Origin: Desulfohalobiaceae bacterium
GTDB taxonomy: Bacteria > Desulfobacterota > Desulfovibrionia > Desulfovibrionales > Desulfothermaceae
Assembly: GCA_021737085.1 (NCBI GenBank)
Contig: JAIPEP010000002.1
Location: 1 to 53,473, forward strand
DNA: 53,473 nt
Reading direction: 5' to 3'
Translations under genes and position numbers: made by a program
Shown: in pieces, positions 2,655-4,747 of the stretch
Layout of the letters: each line of letters starts with the position of its first letter
Position numbering within the stretch: position 1 is the stretch's first letter
The notes under the pieces: model-generated
Seen by the model: only the letters and a program-made list of their open reading frames with translations
The model's database searches: none
Told to the model about the DNA's origin: nothing

Positions 2655-3014
2655 TTATCCGGATTGTTCTTTCACATACTTTCTGTATTCCCTCAGCAAA
2701 ACATACAAAAATTCTCTATAAACACTTTCAGAAGAAGGGATATAGTTCTTGTGATCTTTCAGCCTTTTGATAATCTCCTCCGCAGCTTCTTCATTAGGCT
2801 TCCAGCCTTCTTGGTAGAGCTCGGCCATTGTTTCGTCCAGACCCATAAATCCGACTTGCGTGTCATCGGGAAATTTCAGGGTTCGCCGGCTAACTGCCGA
2901 CTCTTCGGGAGGTCATCCGCCTACTCACCCGCCTTGGTCATTTTGAGAAATAGTGTGCCTACAGTTTAGTGTATTAGGGGAAAAGCTTGATACATCCTTT
3001 TTGTGACGAGACAT
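2655..3014 (-). CDS. candidate selenoprotein with two in-frame UGA codons, arsenic operon
   Basis: A conventional reading gives only a 63-residue protein starting at ATG 2846 with no good ribosome site. The same frame is continuous back to ATG 3014, which has a perfect AAGGAGG six bases upstream, and is interrupted only by two TGA codons (2927-2925 and 2915-2913). Read as selenocysteine the protein has 119 residues with the motif GG-U30-VGG-U34-PPEE. After this come TLKFPDDTQVGFMGLDE and an acidic/basic helical part (EEIIKRLKDHKNYIPSSES, then LLREYRKYVKEQ). A 6-bp hairpin begins 11 bases after the second UGA. The frame between the UGAs and ATG 2846 reads like protein without other stops. It lies between arsR and arsC. 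A redox or metalloid-binding role for the UxxxU pair is inferred. The alternatives are a pseudogene with two nonsense mutations or a short protein from ATG 2846. Confidence 0.6.
2885..2901 (-). promoter_or_regulatory. SECIS-like hairpin after the in-frame UGA codons
   Basis: On the minus strand GUCGGC-AGUUA-GCCGGC forms a 6-bp stem (one G-U pair) with a five-base loop. Exactly 11 bases separate it from the second UGA, the same offset as in E. coli fdhF, and 23 bases from the first. The loop starts 17 and 29 bases after the two UGAs, within the 16-37 range given for bacterial SECIS elements, and has a G among its first two bases as that consensus asks. Confidence 0.55.
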
Positions 3015-3099
3015 ACTGAGCCTCCTTAAACTTGAATGGATAGTAACTTTAGTGTTTTTTTATGTGCAAAAAGGCATTCTTATATTCTGCGACATATCC

Positions 3100-3435
3100 C
3101 TATCTTTGTCTGAAATCCTGCAGGTCGCCCGTCTGCCGCAGGATGTTGGTCTGGACCAAATTCTCCAGACAGGAGAAGAAATCGAGCACACAGGGAGCGG
3201 CCAGGTGATAGTGCATCTGGGTGCCCCGCTTCTCGTAGTCCACAATTCCGGCATCCCGCAGCAGGGACAGATGCTTGGACACAGTGGAGGTGTCCGCGCC
3301 CACCATCTCGGTGAGTTCGCAGACACACCTGTCTCGGCGGCTCAATTCATCTACGATGAAGAGCCGGGTGGGATGGCCCAGGGCCTTCATGATCCGGGCC
3401 CGGGTTTCGTAGCGATCGCGGATTTCTCGGTTCAT
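3100..3435 (-). CDS. arsR: ArsR/SmtB family metalloid-responsive repressor
   Basis: A 111-residue winged-helix repressor. LGHPTRLFIVDEL starts the DNA-binding domain, DRCVCELTEM (Cys37, Cys39) is the arsenite site of the ELCVCDL type on the alpha-3 helix, and STVSKHLSLLRDAGIVDYEKRG is recognition helix plus wing. Further cysteines Cys82 and Cys89 lie in the C-terminal helix. It is the first gene of the operon and sits directly behind a promoter overlapped by a 9-6-9 inverted repeat, so autoregulation is expected: arsenite binding should release the repressor. The metalloid could also be antimonite. Confidence 0.92.
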   Translation of the reverse strand: MNREIRDRYETRARIMKALGHPTRLFIVDELSRRDRCVCELTEMVGADTSTVSKHLSLLRDAGIVDYEKRGTQMHYHLAAPCVLDFFSCLENLVQTNILRQTGDLQDFRQR

Positions 3436-3447
3436 TTTTTATCTCCG

Positions 3448-3488
3448 TTGGTTATTTGGTATAATAACCAAGAATGAAAATTTGTCAA
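3448..3488 (-). promoter_or_regulatory. ars operon promoter with ArsR operator
   Basis: The minus strand has TTGACA (3488-3483), 11 bases, then the inverted repeat TTGGTTATT-N6-AATAACCAA (3471-3448), whose centre contains the -10-like TATACC. The repeat covers the -10 region and ends only a few bases before the arsR ribosome site. It is the presumed ArsR binding site. Confidence 0.72.
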
Positions 3489-4381: not shown

Positions 4382-4747
4382 TTTTGTATGTAAATGTCTA
4401 TAACCTGCTGAATTACTGGAAACATTTTTAGCGAGCCGAGCCGGGGAGAGCGCTGAAGCGCAGGTTTCATCCCGGGCATCAAGTGCCTGGAGGAGCAGGT
4501 CTTGAGCGGCTCCACCCTCAAGCCACCGGACAACAAGGAGATAGTTTCTCTCTAAGGCAACCTTTGAAGCAAATGGGCACGCTAATTGGGCCTACGGCAC
4601 ATTAATTCAAAGCCATGGTCTATATGAAACTCAGCGAACACATGCACCCATTCTTTGAATGGGTGCAGAGTGAAGCGCTCTCCCCGGCTCGGCTCGCGAC
4701 ATTTTCATGCTTGGTTGTGCCTGTGTCACCGCAGGGATGAGGGTTAT
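4382..4747. repeat. MITE-like repeat, copy A
   Basis: About 366 bp that recur in inverted orientation at 12949-13278. The core is bounded by a perfect 24-bp inverted pair (4431-4454 against 4674-4697, beginning GCGAGCCGAGCCGGGG) with AT-rich outer flanks that also mirror each other (GGAAACATTTTTA and GCATGAAAATGTC). Internal landmarks shared with copy B are GGCTCCACCCTCAAGCCACC, GTTTCTCTCTAAGGCAACCT and AAAGCCATGGTCTATATGAA. No protein is encoded. The layout suggests a non-autonomous transposable element or a large extragenic palindrome. Confidence 0.75.
4643..4667. repeat. perfect hairpin inside repeat copy A
   Basis: TGCACCCATTC-TTT-GAATGGGTGCA, an 11-bp perfect inverted repeat with a 3-base loop. 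Copy B lacks this segment, so it was either inserted into A or lost from B. Confidence 0.7.

Follow-up and report, generated by a model that had tools for sequence, protein, structure and literature searches.

The window, a stretch of 53,473 nt (contig C8 of a 2.36 Mb Desulfohalobiaceae genome that is 89% complete), contains a small frame among arsenic resistance genes that is interrupted by two TGA codons. This locus raises the question of whether the two codons are stops or are read as selenocysteine (Sec), and what a protein with two Sec residues would do in such a neighbourhood.

The gene lies on the minus strand (2655–3014). Direct reading gave 119 codons followed by a TAA at 2655. The sole interruptions were the TGAs of codon 30 (UGA1, 2925–2927, minus strand) and codon 34 (UGA2, 2913–2915, minus strand), and the ribosome-binding site AAGGAGG (3021–3027, minus strand) was located 6 nt 5ʹ of the ATG at 3014–3012. 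The first-pass annotation had described a perfect ribosome site and a frame broken by two TGAs alone, and both descriptions were confirmed. Read through, the product would be a protein of 119 aa with Sec30 and Sec34. The 63-residue C-terminal part reported in the same frame was also found, as a 63-aa ORF at 2655–2846 within the gene. This ORF is opened by an ATG at 2846 and gives some footing to a reading in which the UGAs are true stops, UGA1 closes a short leader peptide and the protein proper begins downstream, for example at ATG 2846.

A search with the window protein alone returned no match in genome contigs, viral contigs or plasmids, its patterns being too narrow, and the family was found with profiles of three, then five sequences. 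Relatives in two genomes of another genus of the same family, the Desulfohalobiaceae, were 50–54% identical to the window protein and carried the same two TGAs. Altogether, 63 members were read in Desulfobacterota genomes (39 in alignment A6 and 24 further ones), and 62 of them retained both UGAs; in the remaining one, L066, the first UGA was replaced by TTA (Leu). Within the alignment, UGA1 was TGA in 38 of 39 members and TTA in one, while UGA2 was TGA in 39 of 39, two of them offset by one alignment column. All 77 in-frame stops were UGA, with no UAA and no UAG, which argues against termination at these codons. In nearly all members, the start codon was located 8–29 codons before UGA1 and was preceded by a Shine-Dalgarno-like site (AGGAGG in many). 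Homologues that begin at ATG 2846, which the first-pass annotation had named as evidence against recoding, were not what we observed: ribosome sites, like conserved sequence, are present 5ʹ of the UGAs, the stretch TVSRR..FPDGTQV is conserved upstream of 2846, and the Met at 2846 is unconserved, relatives having none there.

Among close relatives, dN/dS was 0.24 for the segment between the start Met and UGA1, 0.12 for the next one, which begins at UGA1 and takes in the hairpin described below, and 0.16 for the domain. This purifying selection across all segments indicates translation of the frame before and after each UGA, and protein-level selection spanning the two codons is hard to reconcile with a leader peptide; we regard true stops as exceedingly improbable. 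The proportion of synonymous change (pS) was lower in the hairpin segment (0.37) than elsewhere (0.57–0.65), which is what an added constraint on RNA structure there would produce.

A stem-loop of the bacterial SECIS type, GUCGGC-AGUUA-GCCGGC, was confirmed at 2885–2901 on the minus strand, starting 11 nt past UGA2 and with a G at loop position 2, as had been proposed. It has a 6 bp stem, the loop AGUUA and a folding energy of −8.9 kcal/mol; the loop lies 17 nt past UGA2 and 29 nt past UGA1. Across the full 86-nt region, folding energy was not unusual (z = 0.53), so that the single window sequence is weak evidence, and the two-UGA reading is settled by comparative data, namely the UGAs of the relatives, the exclusive use of UGA among in-frame stops and the excess of hairpins. 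With respect to the last, 29 of 39 members passed a strict hairpin filter, compared to 4.0 expected after synonymous recoding; several of the 10 that failed did so through one stem mismatch. The hairpins of the 39 members aligned without gaps, and nearly all loops read AGUU(A/G). Among 36 members read, the loop valine was encoded by GTT in 33, compared to 71 of 208 other valines, and by inspection GTT also encodes it in the window, L085 and L086, which lie beyond those 36.

Covariance folding, which the first-pass annotation had suggested as a check, gave a consistent result. One stem pair was A-U in 19 members and G-C in 13, another was G-C in 30 and A-U in 5, and the covariation score exceeded that of 500 of 500 shuffles and of all slid controls. 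The covariance model matched the 39 members and two more copies in 552 kb, and in the same 552 kb no Cys paralogue or thioredoxin fusion was matched. A search of Rfam returned no match. According to the published bacterial SECIS model, the loop has 3–9 nt with a G in the first two positions and is located 16–37 nt from the UGA, on a stem of at least 4 bp (PMC13188914), and the hairpins of the window and of the family agree with this description. Of the 38 two-UGA members, 28 had 29 nt between UGA1 and the loop and the others 26 or 32 nt; from UGA2 to the loop, the distance was 17, 20 or 23 nt. Since the loop distances to both codons fall within 16–37 nt, one element can serve both UGAs, as had been suggested for the window, and this geometry leads us to infer that a single hairpin probably does so.

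The genome also carries the machinery for Sec insertion, the absence of which would have spoken against recoding: selA, a selB scoring over the cut-off, a tRNA-Sec (selC) of 81.7 bits with anticodon TCA, and a selD that has its own in-frame TGA followed by a G-loop hairpin. The presence of selA does not discriminate, because 355 of 395 Desulfobacterota genomes carry it. Judged from sequence comparison, Sec insertion at the window gene is near certain, and the locus almost certainly encodes a genuine double selenoprotein, the case for selenium insertion itself being comparative.

The arrangement of the two Sec residues varied among members. The UxxxU motif described by the first-pass annotation is present in the window, in the named isolate NaphS2 (L011, contig ADZZ01000416.1) and in others, but is only one of several spacings: UxxU was the commonest, followed by UxxxU and then UxxxxU (KGGE, AGGC). 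In one genome, L051 and L054 (UAGGCU and UVGGCU) had an extra Cys adjoining the second Sec. L099 contained a third TGA two codons 5ʹ of its start Met, in addition to the two inside the gene. At L010:1662–1664, the gene closes with GAATGATCCGGC in place of the GATCGATCCGGC of its relatives, and a TGA stop occurs a few residues sooner than in them.

Distant homologues indicate which chemistry occupies these positions. Where the Sec form has its Sec pair, free-standing homologues that share its domain carry CC or CPC (as in YCCVPPTPGLRMLTFPDG, GPCCTP and TCPCMM), and some of them share gene clusters with the Sec form. Thus, of the expectation that homologues would carry Cys-x3-Cys, the Cys at the sites held, but the exact spacing was not found; unrelated residues at both UGA positions, the outcome that would have counted against recoding, were not observed either, the relatives having Sec and the distant homologues Cys. 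A tree of the short domain placed the 39 Sec members in one group (support 94/94), separate from the Cys forms and the thioredoxin fusions, and most deeper forks were without resolution. In L089, L055, L058, L045, L046, L087 and L088, the same C-terminal domain formed the front part of a fusion with an ArsE-type thioredoxin; several of these copies are near ACR3 permeases, and the fused domain has no family model.

The Cys homologues bear on a further reading, in which the UGAs act as a Sec-dependent regulatory switch ahead of the arsenic genes and the chemistry of the two Sec residues themselves is irrelevant. The UGAs are near the start, so that low Sec would truncate the product, and one member has a Leu codon for UGA1, both of which would suit a switch. 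Cys at the corresponding place in homologues indicates that the chemistry of the residue matters, and the retention of both UGAs in all but one of the members read also argues against it. We consider such a switch very unlikely.

The AlphaFold model predicts a β-hairpin followed by three helices in residues 42–119 (2655–2891, minus strand; pLDDT mostly >90), preceded by a disordered tail, residues 1–36, that includes both Sec residues. No thioredoxin fold is present in the model of the selenoprotein. A Foldseek search of PDB folds gave no significant match (best E 0.51), nor did a PDB sequence search with the domain, and neither the Sec members nor the Cys homologues are covered by a model in Pfam or NCBIfam. 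Matches to Torsin, PrkA and other Pfam families were weak (E above 0.007) and were dismissed as chance. None of the 119 prokaryotic selenoprotein families listed in a 2026 review corresponds to this one; the families of two selenoprotein papers by Haft were compared via NCBIfam and the table of that review. The first-pass annotation had not recognised a described selenoprotein here, and these searches agree with it. On these searches, this widespread family of small bacterial two-Sec proteins is undescribed. Profile matches occurred in 59 of 395 genomes sampled evenly across the phylum, a count that takes in Cys forms and thioredoxin fusions.

The gene neighbourhood points to arsenic. On the minus strand, the order in the window is arsR (3100–3435; PF01022/NF033788), the selenoprotein gene, an arsenate reductase gene, arsC, of the LMW-phosphatase fold (2125–2553; PF01451, with TIGR02691 the best match, under NCBI's cut-off), an ArsP-type permease gene (846–2021; PF03773, E 1.7e-75) and a gene for an ArsE/MTH895-type thioredoxin-like protein with CPKC (576–812; TIGR00412 over cut-off), which bears out the proposed place between arsR and arsC. 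A sigma-70-like promoter, TTGACA-16-TATTAT, precedes arsR (3461–3488, minus strand), and a second promoter-like site precedes arsP. By direct reading, a TTGGTTATT..CCAAATA block overlaps both sites, and because this block recurs at each, it suggests a shared operator through which one ArsR may control both promoters. Further along the window, a perfect 24-nt inverted repeat, GCGAGCCGAGCCGGGGAGAGCGCT, was observed at 4431–4454 and 4674–4697 (219 nt between arms), between a flavodoxin-like gene and a PEP-synthase-like gene; a small mobile element is one possible explanation, a regulatory structure another.

Across the 39 family loci, an ars-type gene was located within 7 kb in 28 as a raw count; many contigs end sooner. 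Counted on all ORFs, the neighbours were ACR3 (17), ArsR (12), ArsE (12), CcdA (11), LMW-ArsC (9) and ArsP (8), and thioredoxins occurred in 9 of the 39. The arsenic link was weaker in a large UVTUVDPNAP subgroup, some loci of which have no ars gene within reach. From this gene context, the protein very probably has a role in handling arsenic or another soft metalloid. A Met-/Cys-rich protein of about 70 aa (..EMMPxCMExMK..MMxxMM), without a match in Pfam or NCBIfam, was encoded in 9 of 39 loci (L058–L061 and L064–L066, at about +325 nt; L085, at about −300 nt; and L056) and adjoined the selenoprotein gene in several; it is a possible partner of the selenoprotein.

How the two selenols would act can be read in two ways. 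In one, the protein is a redox shuttle whose diselenol/diselenide cycle recycles ArsC, the ArsE thioredoxin or an oxidised arsenical and is fed by CcdA or thioredoxin. The frequency of CcdA, thioredoxin and LMW-ArsC genes among the neighbours fits this reading, as does the fusion of the domain to an ArsE-type thioredoxin, but the selenoprotein itself has no thioredoxin fold, and a spacing of 2–4 residues together with CC or CPC in the Cys forms is unusual for a catalytic CxxC-type site. We regard a shuttle as possible, though doubtful. Because the spacing varies and the Cys forms are CC or CPC, a ligand role is favoured over a fixed CxxC-type redox site, and we lean slightly towards a chaperone or ligand rather than a redox catalyst.

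As a ligand or chaperone, the protein might work as follows. Both UGAs are, on the comparative evidence, decoded as Sec by SelB and tRNA-Sec, with one SECIS hairpin just 3ʹ of UGA2 probably recoding the pair. The predicted product would be a flexible N-terminal two-selenol tail on a compact β2-α3 domain. The selenol pair would most likely bind arsenic, either in trivalent form or as an organoarsenical, and the domain may dock on a partner, perhaps the permease, and pass the arsenic to an efflux permease, ArsP here and ACR3 in many relatives. Taken as a whole, an undescribed double-Sec protein with a shared SECIS that hands arsenic to an efflux permease is probably the best explanation of the locus. 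We give an even chance to the broader proposal that, in an anaerobe lineage, a selenol pair on a tail, made from two UGAs and one SECIS, serves as a dedicated ligand for arsenic or soft metalloids that feeds efflux pumps, with the Sec spacing free and the hairpin distance held.

These results add an unannotated selenoprotein family whose genes are cut at the UGA by gene callers; with matches in 38 of 46 genomes, it is nearly universal in one bacterial class. A two-Sec family in such loci would tie selenium directly to arsenic resistance. It also offers a natural test of one SECIS recoding two nearby UGAs at different distances, and its spacing variants, single-UGA member and Cys paralogues provide comparison material for the shared-SECIS question.

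Several known systems resemble parts of this one. ArsD, a small protein encoded in ars operons, has vicinal Cys residues and is proposed to bind As(III) and pass it to the pump. The selenoprotein is likewise a small ars-operon protein, and its proposed hand-over of arsenic is likened to that of ArsD by analogy; however, it has two Sec residues on an N-terminal tail where ArsD has Cys pairs, and the ArsD profile (PF06953/NF033727) gave no match to the window protein and was absent from the families listed for the 39 members. NF041115, a UxxU selenoprotein with predicted metal binding (PMC13188914, Table 1), shares the two Sec residues spaced UxxU but has a different domain, and its model touched only one of 39 members (E 0.035, below cut-off). 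TsoB (NF045694), with UxxxxU, also has two Sec residues close together, but it is a rhodanese/DsbD fusion-like membrane protein, unlike the present family, no member of which matched the model; a CcdA neighbour of the family matched it weakly (E 6.7e-10, far below cut-off). The ArsE/MTH895-type protein (TIGR00412) has a thioredoxin domain, whereas the selenoprotein has none, yet the two occur in shared operons, and some genomes encode a fusion of the ArsE-type protein with the C-terminal domain found in the selenoprotein.
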